In this document: piece after piece, positions 28,573 to 33,551 of the stretch
Position numbering within the stretch: the first letter of the stretch is position 1
Layout: every line of letters starts with the position of its first letter
Assembly (NCBI RefSeq): GCF_000424305.1
Contig: NZ_KE384162.1
Location: 558,001-622,000, forward strand
Reading direction: 5' to 3'
DNA: 64,000 nucleotides
From: Pseudobutyrivibrio ruminis AD2017
GTDB lineage: Bacteria > Bacillota > Clostridia > Lachnospirales > Lachnospiraceae
The notes under the pieces: model-generated
Databases searched by the model: none
What the model saw: the letters and a program-made list of their open reading frames with translations, nothing else
What the model was told of the DNA's origin: nothing
Program-made: the position numbers and the translations under genes

Positions 28573-29325
28573 TTATAATTTTTCTTTTACAGAAGATGTG
28601 CTAACAGGAAATGTGAAGTATGTATTAGTATATGGCTCATCCGCAAGAGTAAAATGCCACCACTCTTCTGCCAATGGATTAAAGCCATGACGTAGCATAA
28701 CATCTCTTAAAAGCATACGGTTTGCATACTGTTCTTTAGTGATACCAGTGTAATCAGGATGACTAAGCTCTCCAAAATAATCGAAGGTTCCACCCATATC
28801 AACTTCCTTTTCTGTTCGCATATCAAACAAAGTAAGATCTACAGTGCTTCCACGGCTATGGCCAGAATGCTCAGCAATATATCCCTGTGGAAACAATACA
28901 TTCTTCTGAAGCTCTGGATAAAAATACTGTTTCATTCTTGTATCCTTAGGATTCTGCGCCCAGTCTACAAAATTTGTTACTGCCATCTGAGGTCTATAGG
29001 CATCATAAATCTTTAATCTATAGCCCTTTGCTACAAGTTCATCACTGGCTGCCTTTAAAGCTGTAGCAGCTTCTTTTGTAAGTAGCGCCACTGGCTCCTC
29101 ATAGCCATCTATTCTATCTCCTATAAAATTATAAGTAGAATAATAACGGATTTCTAAAATTGCATCAGGTACAGCATCACTTAACAACACGAAATCTGAT
29201 GCATCTGCAGAATAAACAACTGTTTCTTCAGCATTTGATTCCATAGGAACCGACAACAAAATAATGATTGCACTAAGAGATAATGCAGATAATGTTCTAA
29301 ACACTTTTAAACCTTTTTGATACAT
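28573..29325 (-). CDS. Secreted D-alanyl-D-alanine dipeptidase (VanX/DdpX family)
   Basis: A 250-aa zinc dipeptidase with a signal peptide (cleavage about SNA/EE, near residue 34). Zinc ligands and catalytic residues are in order: IYDAYRP (Arg), HSGHSRGSTVDL (His and Asp) and EEWWHF (catalytic Glu, zinc His). It hydrolyses D-Ala-D-Ala; with no vanRS, vanH or vanA here, it is better seen as a peptidoglycan-recycling enzyme outside the membrane than as a resistance gene. The start is ATG 29325 with GGAGGAG six bases upstream. The first repeat element begins about 70 bases upstream, so the promoter must lie within or against it. Confidence 0.9.
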   Translation of the reverse strand: MYQKGLKVFRTLSALSLSAIIILLSVPMESNAEETVVYSADASDFVLLSDAVPDAILEIRYYSTYNFIGDRIDGYEEPVALLTKEAATALKAASDELVAKGYRLKIYDAYRPQMAVTNFVDWAQNPKDTRMKQYFYPELQKNVLFPQGYIAEHSGHSRGSTVDLTLFDMRTEKEVDMGGTFDYFGELSHPDYTGITKEQYANRMLLRDVMLRHGFNPLAEEWWHFTLADEPYTNTYFTFPVSTSSVKEKL

Positions 29326-29393
29326 GTTTTTCTCCTCCATTGCCAATAGCTTTCGCTTAACTCCTCTTAACATGTATCAAGATAACATTTGGA

Positions 29394-29419
29394 TTGTCAC
29401 AATAGTATCACAGTGACAA
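29394..29419. repeat. Degenerate outlying inverted repeat of array A
   Basis: TTGTCAC (29394-29400) and GTGACAA (29413-29419) face each other across 12 bases. These are the same end sequences as the 50-bp units of the adjacent array, but the conserved centre is missing. Confidence 0.6.
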
Positions 29420-29445
29420 ATGCTGCCATTGTTTCTGGTGGGATT

Positions 29446-29717
29446 CTGTCACAAGTATCCCCACAAACCCACATTTTCCATTACCCTTGTGACAGGATTT
29501 CACTGATTCTGGCTTTTTTCTGTCACAAACCTCTTCACAAACCCACATTTTTCGTTATCTCTGTGACAGAATTTCATTGATTCCGCCTGATTTCTGTCAC
29601 AAACTTTCTCACAAACCCACTTTTTCCGTTACACCTGTGACAGAATATCACTGATTCTGGTTATTTTCTGTCACAAACCTCTTCACAAACCCACATTTTT
29701 CGTTATCTCTGTGACAG
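29446..29717. repeat. Array A: four 50-bp units with inverted-repeat ends, period exactly 74 bp
   Basis: Units at 29446-29495, 29520-29569, 29594-29643 and 29668-29717. Each begins CTGTCACAA (or CTGTCACAAA) and ends with TGTGACAG, with an invariant interior ACAAACCCAC. The 24-bp spacers are near copies of each other (GATTTCACTGATTCT and relatives), so the true unit is a 74-bp tandem repeat. The 574 bases between the dipeptidase start (29325) and the next gene (29900) hold this array and no gene that I can support. Confidence 0.93.
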
Positions 29718-29899
29718 GATTTCATTGATTCTAAAATAACCTACTGTAATATGGAATTCCCCCCCTTGCATTGTTATATTTTTAATGTATATTTCATTCT
29801 CGACGTCAATATATAACTTTATCTTGACTATTGTTCATTACTATGGTATTTTAATGAAATCTTTATTGAGTCGTTTTTTATTCCATACATAAAAATTTA

Positions 29900-30682
29900 A
29901 TGAATTATAATCTAAAAAATCTATATCAAGAATTAGATAAAATCGAAAAGGAGATTTTATCTCTCCCCAAAGGTAATCTATTAGTTTATCCAAATGGAAA
30001 ATGGCATAGATGGTTTTATTTAAATAACACCACTAGACAATATATTTCCAAAAAAGATTATTCTTTTGCAACAAAGCTTGCTAGGAAAAAATATCTTGAA
30101 CTTAGGAAAGCATTATTACTTGCCCAGATTGATGTTATCAACAATGATTCCACTAAAGCTTTTAAAGCTGCACATTCTGAGCTTCAAGAATTATTGCTAG
30201 ATAAAGGATATAGCTATCTGTTAAGACCCTACTTTAACAAAATTCCCACTGATGATCTAATTAATTGGCAATCATCATATAATTCCAATCCGAAGAACCC
30301 TGAGCAATTGACCTTTCAATGCCCTTCAGGTAATTTAGTGCGCTCAAAATCAGAAGTTTTTATTGATATGGCACTATCAAGCAATACTATTCCTTACAGA
30401 TATGAATGCGAACTCATTTTGAATGGAATCAAGTTCTACCCTGATTTCACATTAAAGCATCCTGTCACAGGCGATATTATTTACTGGGAACATTTAGGAA
30501 TGATGGACAATAATGATTATGCCAAGAAAGCATTTTCAAAGCTTCAGACGTACCAGGCCAACCACATTATCCCTGGTGAGAACCTTATACTTACCTTCGA
30601 ATCAAGAAATAATCCTTTCTCATTTTCCGATGCCGAGCTTGCTCTTAACATGCTAGGAATCAAAAAAAATGTGCCGTTATAA
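29900..30682 (+). CDS. PD-(D/E)XK-like protein of unknown function
   Basis: A 260-aa soluble protein. The C-terminal half has a pattern typical of this fold: VRSKSEVFIDMAL (Glu near 154), YECELILNGIKFYPDFTL (Asp near 183), then YWEHLGMMD (Glu-His near 200). The N-terminal half is basic and helical with a WHRWFYL segment, compatible with DNA binding. The ribosome site is very weak, so the exact start is uncertain. It is AT-rich, lies between the two repeat arrays and is the only candidate nucleic-acid enzyme there. Similar orphan proteins occur in Lachnospiraceae; no function is known to me. Confidence 0.75.
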   Translation: MNYNLKNLYQELDKIEKEILSLPKGNLLVYPNGKWHRWFYLNNTTRQYISKKDYSFATKLARKKYLELRKALLLAQIDVINNDSTKAFKAAHSELQELLLDKGYSYLLRPYFNKIPTDDLINWQSSYNSNPKNPEQLTFQCPSGNLVRSKSEVFIDMALSSNTIPYRYECELILNGIKFYPDFTLKHPVTGDIIYWEHLGMMDNNDYAKKAFSKLQTYQANHIIPGENLILTFESRNNPFSFSDAELALNMLGIKKNVPL

Positions 30683-30760
30683 AAGGTGTTGTTATTTTTT
30701 TAAATGGTGTTATTATAACGCTGTAATTAATGAACTCTTTTTTCGGAGGAATGAAATATC

Positions 30761-31750
30761 ATGAAAAATAGTTTGGTAAAAATGATGACACTCGTTGGTA
30801 TGGTTGGTATGATGTCTTCTACTGGACTTGTAGCACACGCTGCAGAGGCACCATCTACAGCTCAGACACAGACAGTTAAGCAGAATCTTAATGCTTCAGT
30901 TATTGCAAAAGTATTTGATGCCAAGTATTACGCTGAGGCTTATCCAGATGTAGTTGCGGTACTTGGATCTGATCCAGCTGTACTTTTAAATCACTATGTA
31001 AATAATGGTATCTATGAAGGTAGAGATGCTTCAGCTACATTCAATGCTTCTATTTATGCACTTGCAAACTCAGATATTGCTGCAGCTTATGGTGATAACC
31101 TTGAAGCTTATGTAGAGCATTATCTTGCATTTTGTGCTAAGGAAAATAGAATTGCATGTAATGAGCAGATGGCTAAGCTTGATATTAACACTCAGGCACA
31201 GATTGCAAGTAAGGGTGCTGCTACATTTGAAGCTAAGGGTGTTACTGCTATCTCATTTGCTTCAACATACTCTAGTCAGGCTCCACAGGCTTCACTTTGG
31301 TATGGAGACATTGTAAAGATTAATGCAAATGGTGATACAGCTGCACTTGGAGAAACAATCGCTAAAGGTAATACTAATCAGTATGTAACATATGTACCAA
31401 CTGGTAATGGTGGTTATAGAGCAGAATTTTCTTTCAGAAATGGTTATCTTGACGCCGCTGTAAATAAAGATCTTGCAGATGCTGGTGATCCTGAATATAT
31501 CGCTTGGGTAGCTAATCATCCAGAGTGGTATGATGAAAATGGTGAAGCCATTAAGATGCCTACAGGGCCTATTGCTGGATTTGATGAAAGAGGATTTGCA
31601 ATCCCTGGTACAGTATCATCTGGTTCATCTTCTAGTTCAGGTTCATCTAGTTCTAGCTCAGGTTCTTCATCTAGTGCTCCAGCAGCTAGTTCAGCGCCAT
31701 CTGCACCATATATTGATGATGTAGTTCTTTCAGTTCTTTATGGTAATTAA
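30761..31750 (+). CDS. Secreted protein with YYxxxYPDV-type repeats and Ser-rich tail
   Basis: A 329-aa exported protein: signal peptide (1-28, ending AHAAE), then two copies of a repeat of about 40 residues (FDAKYYAEAYPDV...HYVNNGIYEGRDAS at about 53-90; FNASIYALANSDIAAAYGD...HYLAFCAKENR at about 93-130) known from surface and adhesion proteins, then an unrecognised domain (150-280). A Ser-Gly-rich stretch (about 287-305) precedes an Ala/Ser/Pro tail with no sorting motif. GGAGG precedes the ATG. Probably a cell-surface protein; role unknown. It ends at a strong terminator. Confidence 0.8.
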   Translation: MKNSLVKMMTLVGMVGMMSSTGLVAHAAEAPSTAQTQTVKQNLNASVIAKVFDAKYYAEAYPDVVAVLGSDPAVLLNHYVNNGIYEGRDASATFNASIYALANSDIAAAYGDNLEAYVEHYLAFCAKENRIACNEQMAKLDINTQAQIASKGAATFEAKGVTAISFASTYSSQAPQASLWYGDIVKINANGDTAALGETIAKGNTNQYVTYVPTGNGGYRAEFSFRNGYLDAAVNKDLADAGDPEYIAWVANHPEWYDENGEAIKMPTGPIAGFDERGFAIPGTVSSGSSSSSGSSSSSSGSSSSAPAASSAPSAPYIDDVVLSVLYGN

Positions 31751-31777
31751 TATCTTTTCTCTGATATAAAATATATT

Positions 31778-31813
31778 ATCCCTACTGATTAAATTCAGTA
31801 GGGATTATTTTTA
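31778..31813 (+). terminator. Intrinsic terminator after the secreted-protein gene
   Basis: ATCCCTACTGA (31778-31788) pairs with TCAGTAGGGAT (31795-31805), loop of six, followed by TATTTTTAT. Confidence 0.88.
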
Positions 31814-31816
31814 TAC

Positions 31817-31855
31817 AAAAAAGATAGTTACGGATTACCCATAGCTATCTTTTTT
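31817..31855 (-). terminator. Terminator hairpin for the truncated minus-strand gene
   Basis: AAAAAAGATAGTTA (31817-31830) pairs with TAGCTATCTTTTTT (31842-31855) with one mismatch; T6 on both strands. It lies 12 bases past the stop of the gene fragment, evidence that this was once a complete gene. Confidence 0.75.
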
Positions 31856-31867
31856 ATTAATATTTAA

Positions 31868-32515
31868 TTAATATCCTACGGTTATGCCACTTACAGATAT
31901 TCTAGAAACTGCATCGGCAGGTTCCCATCCCATTGTCCAACCGTAATTGTCTAATACATTATGAGTTTGTGCTTTTGCACTAACTTTCAAATAACAACCG
32001 TTAAGTTGTGAATCGCCTAGACCGTATAGATATATTGTATTACCTGTCGAACTATTTGTAGCCAATATCTCACCGGTAGGTGAATATAGTGTCATTGAAA
32101 GATATGCTAAATCTCTTTCATATGAATAATGAAGAGTAATTGTCTTAGCACCTGGATATATTAAATTATCATGGGTAATCATTGCTATCGCACAACTAGA
32201 ATCTTTCCAAGTCTCTTTTGATCTAGAGCCTTCTGGATATACTGTGTTAGTTCCTACTGCACTAGCTGATAAAGTACCCGCTGTATTAGCTGAACTAAAT
32301 GAAATAGTCTCTGATGACTTACTAGGAGTCTTATATACTCTTGCAGTATATGTATCCTCTGATCCATCTTTCTTAAAGCTATATGGGCTAACAATTGTAT
32401 ACTCGAAGTAATCACCTTTATCTACTTTAGTAAACTCAAGATTAATATTATCATGTACATGCTTACATCATTTACACAATGACAGTCTACATATGCTCCT
32501 GAGTAATCAGATTTC
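31868..32515 (-). pseudogene. 5'-truncated, frameshifted remnant of a secreted/surface protein gene
   Basis: An open frame runs from about 32466 to TAA at 31868 (about 199 codons) with no start codon or ribosome site at its beginning. The preceding 50 bases continue the same protein in another frame (SDYSGAYVDCHCVNDV, then a shift, then HVHDNINLEFTKV), so there is a frameshift near 32465. Coding sequence then stops at the first unit of array B. The product is Ser/Thr/Tyr-rich and beta-like, as in a surface or adhesin domain. An internal ATG at 32182 could give a 104-aa fragment but lacks support. It keeps an intact terminator. Confidence 0.75.
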
Positions 32516-32523
32516 CTCCCTTT

Positions 32524-32795
32524 CTGTCACAAGCTTCCTCACAAACCCACATTTCATGTTACTCTTGTGACAGAATCCTGGCTCAAATCTGCCCTTTCTA
32601 TCACAACACCTCCTACAAACCCGCATTTTACGTTGCTCTTGTGACAGAATCCTGACTCTAACCACCATTTTCTGTCACAGCATCTCCTGCAAACCCACAT
32701 TTTCCATTACCCTTGTGACAGAATCCTGACTCTAACCACCATTTTCTGTCACAAGCTTCCCCACAAACCCACATTTCACGTTACTCTTGTGACAG
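32524..32795. repeat. Array B: four 50-bp units with inverted-repeat ends, period exactly 74 bp
   Basis: Units at 32524-32573, 32598-32647, 32672-32721 and 32746-32795, in the same orientation as array A. The interior motif (ACAAACCCACAT) and CTGTCACAA/TTGTGACAG ends are shared with array A; the second unit has CTATCACAA. The 24-bp spacers are alike within this array (AATCCTGACTCTAACC and relatives) but differ from those of array A. So each array grew by local duplication of a common 50-bp core. Confidence 0.93.
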
Positions 32796-32807
32796 GACCG
32801 CCAACTA

Positions 32808-32892
32808 AGGGGGATTCGATTCTCGCCCGCCGGCTCGGTCGGCTCGCGACCGTGTGGTCCACTGGACCACGCTCGCCCCTCGACATCGCGGG
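32808..32892 (-). other. Partial tRNA-Met copy split by a 57-bp GC-rich palindromic insert
   Basis: Plus-strand AGGGGGATTCGA (32808-32819) and CCCTCGACATCGCGGG (32877-32892) match two stretches of the tRNA-Met gene that lie one base apart there (one mismatch in 28). Between them sit 57 bases of about 70% GC with a perfect 17-base palindrome GTGGTCCACTGGACCAC (32854-32870) and a CGGTCG/CGACCG hairpin (from 32836). Array B ends 12 bases to the left. The copy covers the anticodon-stem 3' side to the T-loop and acceptor junction, the part usually duplicated by tRNA-targeting elements. Confidence 0.6.
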
Positions 32893-32934
32893 AACCCCAC
32901 GGTTTGATTGAGTTGAATTCACATCGAGCTGAAT

Positions 32935-32974
32935 AAAAATAAAAGCTAGACCATTTGGTCTAGCTTTTATTTTT
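32935..32974 (-). terminator. Intrinsic terminator of the tRNA operon
   Basis: A perfect 19-bp inverted repeat (32935-32953 with 32956-32974) with core AAAGCTAGACC, rich in A on one side and T on the other, directly after the tRNA-Met 3' end on the minus strand. Confidence 0.92.
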
Positions 32975-32976
32975 AG

Positions 32977-33050
32977 TAGCGAGAGGGGGATTCGAACCCT
33001 CGACACCGCGGGTATGAACCGCGTGCTCTAGCCAACTGAGCTATCTCGCC
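32977..33050 (-). tRNA. tRNA-Met(CAT), elongator type
   Basis: A 74-base cloverleaf without encoded CCA. Acceptor GGCGAGA pairs with TCTCGCT (G-U at the first pair), the D-arm TAGCTCAGTTGGCTAGAGCA is standard, anticodon stem CGCGG/CCGCG encloses loop TTCATAC with anticodon CAT, and the T-loop is GTTCGAATC. The first pair and loop match bacterial elongator Met rather than initiator. Lysidine-type Ile (CAT) is less likely but not excluded by sequence alone. Confidence 0.95.
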
Positions 33051-33077
33051 ATATGTCGAAAATATTCAGTTTTAAAA

Positions 33078-33150
33078 TGGGACCTACAGGGCTCGAACCT
33101 GTGACCCCCTGCTTGTAAGGCAGATGCTCTCCCAGCTGAGCTAAGATCCC
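33078..33150 (-). tRNA. tRNA-Val(TAC)
   Basis: A 73-base cloverleaf without encoded CCA: acceptor GGGATCT with AGGTCCC, D-arm TAGCTCAGCTGGGAGAGCA, anticodon loop CTTACAA (anticodon TAC), T-loop GTTCGAGCC. It lies 27 bases upstream of tRNA-Met, so both come from one transcript. The 248 bases between it and the next gene (33399) hold no gene I can support. Confidence 0.96.
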
Positions 33151-33398
33151 AGAGCTTTTCGCGATTTGTGTACCGCTTCAAGCGACTCGTATAATATAGC
33201 ATTGGATTGGAAGAATGTCAACTCAAAAACAAATATTCGCAATACTTTTATTTTGAGCATTAATTTGCTGAAATTTTCTATCCCGTCTCAGCCCCAGTCC
33301 CTATACTATCGGACATTTTATAGCTATAAAAGTTTTATAATTATTTCACATATAGATGATATTATTACCCATATAGTGATTCTTGTGAGGATAAAAAT

Positions 33399-33551
33399 AT
33401 GACAGATAATAACAAACAATTAATTGATGATTCTGGAATGCACTCAGACACTCAAGAGATAGCTTCGAAGAGATTTGTATTGATATGTCGTTTCTTTTGT
33501 ATTGTATTAGCAATTCTAGGGGTAGCCGCATTGTACAACGGATTTATGTAG
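33399..33551 (+). CDS. Small single-pass membrane protein (50 aa)
   Basis: ATG 33399 has GAGGA eight bases upstream; 50 codons to TAG at 33549-33551. The N-terminal half is polar (NNKQLIDDSGMHSDTQE) and the C-terminal half is a single membrane helix (about residues 27-45, RFFCIVLAILGVAALYNG). It ends ten bases before the potassium channel start, with a second GAGGATAAA ribosome site in between, so the two are co-translated. It could be a channel accessory subunit; this is inferred from position only. Confidence 0.65.
   Translation: MTDNNKQLIDDSGMHSDTQEIASKRFVLICRFFCIVLAILGVAALYNGFM

Follow-up and report, generated by a model that had tools for sequence, protein, structure and literature searches.

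The window analysed here is a stretch of 64,000 nucleotides from Pseudobutyrivibrio ruminis AD2017 (contig NZ_KE384162.1, positions 558,001 to 622,000). Two arrays of a 50-bp unit with inverted ends lie in it, four units in each, and the step between unit starts is exactly 74 bp. Between the arrays stands the gene of their putative partner, a 260-amino-acid protein whose C-terminal part is a nuclease domain of the PD-(D/E)XK type. The pairing of such phased arrays with a cognate gene of this family is well supported and is the main subject of this report. The features are listed below. The strand of a unit is the direction of its core AAYGnAA..GGnTTTG, and units were assigned by sequence and orientation comparison among them unless another basis is given.

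29446..29495, minus strand: array 1, unit 1
29520..29569, minus strand: array 1, unit 2
29594..29643, minus strand: array 1, unit 3
29668..29717, minus strand: array 1, unit 4 (sequence identical to array 1 unit 2)
29900..30682, plus strand: gene of the 260-amino-acid protein, putative array partner (open reading frame (ORF), conserved residues, model, fold comparison, recurrence beside arrays)
32524..32573, minus strand: array 2, unit 1
32598..32647, minus strand: array 2, unit 2 (left arm CTATCACA)
32672..32721, minus strand: array 2, unit 3 (starts CTGTCACAG)
32746..32795, minus strand: array 2, unit 4

Both arrays face the same way. Tandem Repeats Finder detects them independently (period 74, scores 375 and 341) and, together with a check of the sequence, confirms the unit positions, the 50-bp length and the exact step given in the initial annotation. 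The shared ends described there are indeed inverted and common to the units, but they are 8 bp long (CTGTCACA / TGTGACAG) and not 9, and variants occur: the left ends of units 2 and 3 of array 2 listed above, and the right end CTGTGACAG in the units at 29520, 29594 and 29668. The interior ACAAACCCAC, annotated as common to all eight units, is exact in six of them and inexact in the other two. Comparison of the units bears out that the spacers are alike inside one array and different between arrays 1 and 2. The array pattern is not chance, because seven of the eight matches per strand to the arm pattern in the 2.9-Mb genome (21 contigs) fall inside the window arrays and one elsewhere, while the reversed arm pattern gives no match in the same genome. 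A lone extra unit of this family is located at G000:C5:201169-201218 (L033:7170-7219), with a degenerate neighbour 73 bp off.

The protein consists of an N-terminal region (a helix, three strands and a long helix) and the C-terminal nuclease domain. The RSKSE, PD and EHxG residues are invariant in 30 relatives, and among 40 ORFs of the genus RSKSE is found in all 40 and PD[FY] with EHxG in 39. The structure model has a predicted local distance difference test score (pLDDT) of 92.8, and the modelled fold and the acidic catalytic residues are both those of the PD-(D/E)XK superfamily. Alignment A2 does not count here as evidence of motif invariance, since its rows were chosen by RSKSE (74 of 80 loci, 65 used) and via a search pattern containing YWEH. 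Matches to the protein occur in 28 of 29 congeneric genomes, with 1 to 11 per genome, and its closest relatives in the named collection are from Pseudobutyrivibrio. In a draw of 249 genomes of the phylum, eight have matches, four of them full-length and all in the window's own family, Lachnospiraceae, and four to the C-terminal domain only. In a draw of 150 genomes of the family, 49 have a match, a few to one part of the protein only. Plasmids give partial matches only, with ATPase or helicase annotations where annotated. One scan of viral contigs found no relative, and the phage collection gave three records, one of them nearly full-length at 30% identity on an unannotated faecal scaffold marked UNVERIFIED; on these results a viral origin of the gene was rejected.

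The arm family recurs in the genus. Arm-pattern matches were counted per strand in the 29 congeneric genomes, and CTGTCACA arms are found in five of them (G000, 8; G005, 39; G006, 8; G010, 30; G024, 25), with a single match to the reversed control, in G010. The 39 units of G005 are spread over 12 places. For spacing and content, 16 stretches around array places were compared. Spacing is mostly 74 bp, with 64 and 84 bp also present, as well as 73, 75, 83, 85 and 95 bp. The initial annotation took recurrence of the 74-bp phasing beside a specific neighbouring gene as support for function; both recur in the five genomes, and the neighbour is the nuclease-type gene. Its conserved 50-bp core stands in part: the arms are kept across genomes, but the sequence between them is mostly variable. 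That middle part still carries a looser oriented core, AACGnAA..GGnTTTG, which is seen again in the TTGTCAAA family and, weakly, in the TATCGCAA family, a similarity somewhat inflated by orienting units by similarity. The arrays are mostly intergenic, because in a mechanical ORF listing they overlap only ORFs of 70–109 residues and a few bases of one 349-residue ORF. Most of the 16 stretches contain a single array with no partner array nearby; partners are seen in L021, L023 and L026.

Many paralogs of the gene own arrays with distinct arm words. Tandem Repeats Finder, applied to 30 paralog loci, detects arrays with other arms besides the window family, at periods of 72–75 or 50–53 bp. For counting, 40 genus loci were drawn from the upper part of the protein-match list, and loci found through arrays were excluded. 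With a strict finder, which requires three or more units, 21 of the 40 loci have an array at most 600 bp from the gene, and three further arrays are more distant. A second, more permissive finder brings no gain (14 of 80 named loci and 18 of 40 genus loci). We also counted clusters, defined as an 8-base word present at least four times, with at least two in each orientation, in 700 bp. In the genus, clusters occur in 33 of 80 near windows, in 4 of 583 far windows of the same stretches and in 0 of 400 shuffled near windows (Fisher near/far p 2e-29). Outside the genus the counts are 24 of 119 near, 0 of 335 far and 1 of 595 shuffled (p 2e-15). The outside-genus set comprises 65 loci, the 80 named loci minus 15 from Pseudobutyrivibrio (including one Butyrivibrio fibrisolvens record), which were dropped as repeats of genus loci or of loci found through arrays; with those 15 kept, the counts are 40 of 149 near and 2 of 425 far. 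Among 29 loci from a later family-wide draw, which may overlap with the named loci, the gene is readable in 26 and 9 of these are positive.

The words follow the genes. Multi-unit GGTATAAC arrays occur in G003, G007, G021, G023, G024 and G028, which are the six genomes with the matching paralog; the single match in G020 is chance-like. TATCGCAA is present in at least two units in G001, G004, G007, G009 and G027, the genomes with its cognate paralog, with single matches in G000, G012 and G028 as exceptions. All five genomes with CTGTCACA arrays hold the cognate gene. With exact arms, none of the three words reaches two units in any of the 29 genomes lacking its cognate gene. On a quick tree of 101 proteins, with word groups drawn by eye and the 66 rows without a grouped word left out of the count, the groups need 10 changes (minimum 7) versus a shuffled mean of 23.9, and none of 200 shuffles is as low. 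GGTATAA, TATCGCAA and TGTCACA each form a single group, and the changes needed are 2 for AGTAT, 5 for nGCCCAA, 3 for TTGAYAAA and 3 for TGTCCAAA. Because the word groups cluster on the nuclease tree and the three words share genomes with the gene, the repeats co-diversify with their cognate gene.

The spacing of the words follows the DNA helix. Distances between copies of one word on the same strand cluster near 50–54, 60–63, 68–75, 80–85 and 91–96 bp; 10 of 116 fall at 40–48 bp and a few elsewhere. At 10.5 bp, 116 distinct family distances from 27 crude word families give a vector strength of 0.574 (best period near 10.45), and all 483 distances give 0.731 (best 10.65). Outside the genus, 57 locus-distances from the 65 loci give 0.674, with a best period of 9.85. 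This puts the repeat step at about 10 to 10.7 bp. The recurring phasing and the neighbouring gene support the phased protein-binding array, with about seven helical turns per repeat, that was suggested at the outset.

The arms themselves were compared in a set of 95 distinct CTGTCACA units that had been collected for the similarity of their arms. The arms are perfect in 75 of these units; 26 changes affect one arm only and 1 is matched in both, a one-sided pattern that young one-sided mutations would also give. Units occur in both orientations in 8 of 20 loci (L022, L023, L024, L029, L031, L035, L036 and L219). The units can be folded into a stem of 10–15 bp, with z values of −3.4 to −4.6 for four plus-strand units and −1.5 and −3.8 for two minus-strand units. 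Since the arm changes are mostly one-sided and the orientation is mixed, double-stranded protein half-sites fit better than RNA or hairpins, and the sequences favour reading the arms as such half-sites.

Array presence and enclosed genes differ between close species. In the window the difference lies in the slot behind the nuclease gene:

30683..32523, no strand: slot between the nuclease gene and array 2, content differing between species
30761-31750, plus strand: secreted-protein gene in the slot (ORF)
31868-32182, minus strand: short ORF in the slot (ORF)

At the corresponding locus of G010 and G024 the outer flanks and the nuclease gene are kept (main blocks 87–93% identical in DNA) and the slot differs: it holds about nothing in G024, and in G010 it matches up to 31155 only and then continues with other sequence. 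The short ORF was considered as a remnant of the 349-residue ORF of G010 and gave no match. A secreted-protein gene adjoins the nuclease gene at two different loci (30761-31750, L034:7455-8447 and L026:8207-9142; tblastn identity to the window copy 88% and 65%). Two side observations concern the outer edges of the arrays. A short palindrome with the related arms TTGTCACA ... AGTGACAA is located at 29391-29420, in the interval that separates array 1 from the M15 peptidase gene. Between array 2 and tRNA-Met, a G+C-rich stretch at 32803-32975 repeats GGGGGATTCGA of the 3' part of the tRNA-Met and resembles a tRNA fragment left behind by integration.

Other loci vary in a similar manner. Near hypF, arrays and the nuclease gene are present in G005 and G010; in G024 the arrays stand between uppP and hypF without the nuclease gene, and the loci read in G000, G013 and G023 contain no unit. 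A nuclease-type gene also lies by hypF in G006 and G027, in G027 with another word. At the cysK-agr locus, G005 has five units and G010 three, and G000, G013 and G023 have none; cysK is not at that place in the other genus loci compared. Other inverted-ended families occur near hypF and agr genes in other species (L221, L205 and L238), some CTACTGCC/GGCAGTAG-like and some GACTATATAGTC-like. An array in the trp leader of G005 has ATTATTTATT on either side, and G010, whose TrpD is identical to that of G005, has one ATAATTTATT and no array. A second array copy of about 306 bp, 97% identical, lies 4.87 kb from the trp-leader array in G005, and between the two copies are Fic-like and UvrD-like helicase ORFs (L023:4590-9123; names assigned by eye). 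At the aldo/keto reductase locus, G005 and G024 have three units each, G010 has one, and G006, G013 and G023 have none; G023 keeps a lone half-site and G013 a half-site with one change. A host terminator at this locus carries CTGTCACA arms in all of the six species read except G010. The G010 site, upstream of the reductase gene (L330), shows a sequence that looks by eye like a transposase end, together with the one remaining unit.

These results point to an undescribed two-part repeat system in Lachnospiraceae of gut and rumen, and the best reading, which we hold with moderate confidence, is a REP/RAYT-like repeat system with a PD-(D/E)XK nuclease. The array would be one half of the system, a series of 8–9-bp half-sites in alternating orientation, placed whole helical turns apart on double-stranded DNA, so that copies of one protein could bind side by side on one face of the DNA. 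That protein is most likely encoded by the cognate PD-(D/E)XK-type gene, here 29900-30682. Recognition of the half-site would fall to the more variable N-terminal region of the protein and nicking or cutting of DNA to the conserved C-terminal domain, after which repair from existing copies could lengthen the array or copy it to new places. Arrays accompanied by the gene would then be autonomous and the others non-autonomous, in the way that REPs relate to RAYT genes. It is likely that the protein binds the half-sites, and it is reasonable to infer that it cuts DNA and that cutting drives the spread. A wider proposal, which we entertain tentatively and rate as somewhat doubtful, is a separate class of two-part repeats in which the nuclease reads phased double-stranded half-site arrays and drives their spread, with about two dozen distinct word/nuclease pairings in Lachnospiraceae, with arrays serving as slots for cargo exchange (defence-like genes included), and with the Bacillus 52-nt repeats as the same phenomenon with a partner of their own.

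Several observations weigh against the nuclease-driven system. The standard lysine of the PD-(D/E)XK motif is not in its usual place (EHxG). Fold comparison of the N-terminal region with known DNA-binding folds gave no convincing match, and an integrase arm-binding or AP2-like domain, which was considered for it, is unsupported there, although absence from that comparison is not proof. At these thresholds many loci, and the majority of those outside the genus, show no array: 43 of the 65 outside-genus loci have no half-site cluster, and with the strict finder 19 of 40 genus loci have no array within 600 bp and 65 of 80 named loci have none within 1.5 kb. Four species have the nuclease-type gene near hypF, 46–62% identical to that of the window, which suggests mainly vertical inheritance of the gene. 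The repeat in the trp leader that resembles a target-site duplication comes from a single locus, which is A+T-rich, and it differs from the empty site at one position. G012 holds an orphan-like single TATCGCAA unit with only distant paralogs. Exact set agreement would have odds of 8e-6 (5/29) and 2e-6 (6/29) under independence, but the word-gene pairs were partly defined by adjacency and the test is not fully independent, so the plain statement given above for the three words and exact arms is preferable. Most rows of the tree lack a grouped word, and two of the seven word groups (TTGAYAAA and TGTCCAAA) are not single groups on it.

An unlikely alternative is that the arrays are phased sites for gene control or nucleoid folding, with the nuclease domain put to another use or none, and that ordinary recombination spreads them. 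Helical phasing suits co-operative binding, the intergenic position of most arrays is as expected for such sites, and a polymerising protein has been proposed for the Bacillus 52-nt repeats (PMC8161180). In the 65 loci oriented by gene, however, clusters lie upstream in 11 cases and downstream in 13, so they are not confined to the promoter of the nuclease gene; the array places are not all common to close species, and the acidic active-site residues are invariant. We regard as rather improbable that the arrays are selfish or recombinational cassettes, that is, portable homology or attachment sites for gene exchange at which the nuclease starts a break. The same-orientation arrays that enclose a differing slot between like outer flanks in G000, G010 and G024, the two near-identical G005 copies around Fic-like and helicase-like ORFs, and the gene-less arrays by hypF in G024 all agree with such cassettes. 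Against this, most of the 16 stretches have one array without a nearby partner, and homologous recombination between direct repeats would suffice without a dedicated enzyme.

A structured or guide RNA array for an RNA-guided nuclease seems very improbable. The foldable units and the variable unit middle would suit it, but the one-sided arm changes (26 against 1), the mixed orientations and the helical phasing speak for DNA, and no Rfam family reaches the gathering score inside the arrays. The Rfam search of 29000-33400 yields only two tRNAs at that score and 12 weaker matches, one of which, SpR10, lies inside array 2 at 17.3 bits versus 50 required. The structured RNA that the initial annotation had left open is therefore disfavoured. 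A partition or replication site is unlikely given the 12 places in G005 and the varying presence between close species, and an integration site, whether an integron attC or another single site, is rejected for arrays so numerous and scattered. A coding repeat was also rejected: the 74-bp period is not divisible by three, so that no reading frame runs through the arrays. That an unrelated satellite and a common gene family are neighbours by chance is scarcely credible; the absence of arrays from many nuclease loci, and of the gene from some array places, would fit it, but the near/far tests and the clustering of words by nuclease clade already contradict this explanation.

CRISPR and TIGR-type arrays likewise stand next to a nuclease gene and are made up of one constant and one variable part, which gives them a likeness to the present arrays. 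Unlike those, the window arrays have similar spacers, some arrays contain units in both directions, and the arms are paralog-specific. The initial judgement that this is not CRISPR holds: the spacers are similar within arrays, and no cas family appears in a Pfam scan of five window proteins or a PADLOC scan of five nuclease paralogs, nor is there a Cas or Nop partner among these scanned proteins. The present gene also differs from TnsA of Tn7, in that it encodes a stand-alone 260-amino-acid protein and the window arrays both face the same way, with no inverted end arrays; Pfam has no transposition family for three scanned ORFs of the bracketed segment, and no search targeted at TnsB or TnsC was made. 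Searches of open-licence PMC literature turned up no description of cognate arrays paired with a PD-(D/E)XK gene.

The arrays described here seem to form one class of object with the constant-size repeats of Firmicutes, here with a protein partner. Subirana and Messeguer (PMC8161180) describe tandem repeats of 52 nt and 20–21 nt in Bacillus and other Firmicutes, of constant size and variable sequence, whose short words often occur with their own reverse in the same repeat and whose arrays are only partly conserved between strains; the sections of that paper drawn on here report no function and no evidence of a Cas-like partner protein. Shared features are the fixed length near whole helical turns, the variable species-specific sequence, the words with their own reverse and the partial conservation of arrays. 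The differences are that a cognate gene family is proposed here and that lengths differ from 52 in many families. A widespread unnamed gene family is now linked to such repeats, which suggests a protein partner for constant-size bacterial tandem repeats, and since many paralogs have their own word, the question is directly testable with one protein and one array.

In logic, REP/RAYT systems (PMC8266576, PMC8049555) are the nearest two-part relatives. As in these REP/REPIN-RAYT 'REPtrons', short dispersed repeats with inverted arms co-diversify with a single cognate gene and have gene-less copies elsewhere. RAYT belongs to the HUH enzymes and acts on REP in single-stranded form. Here, by contrast, conserved residues and fold comparison indicate a PD-(D/E)XK-type gene and no HUH (Y1) transposase, the arms resemble double-stranded half-sites, and whole helical turns separate the repeats of an array. 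If the nuclease does drive the spread, the system would be an independent second version of the REP/RAYT lifestyle in bacteria and would offer a natural set of protein/half-site pairs for studying the evolution of DNA recognition.

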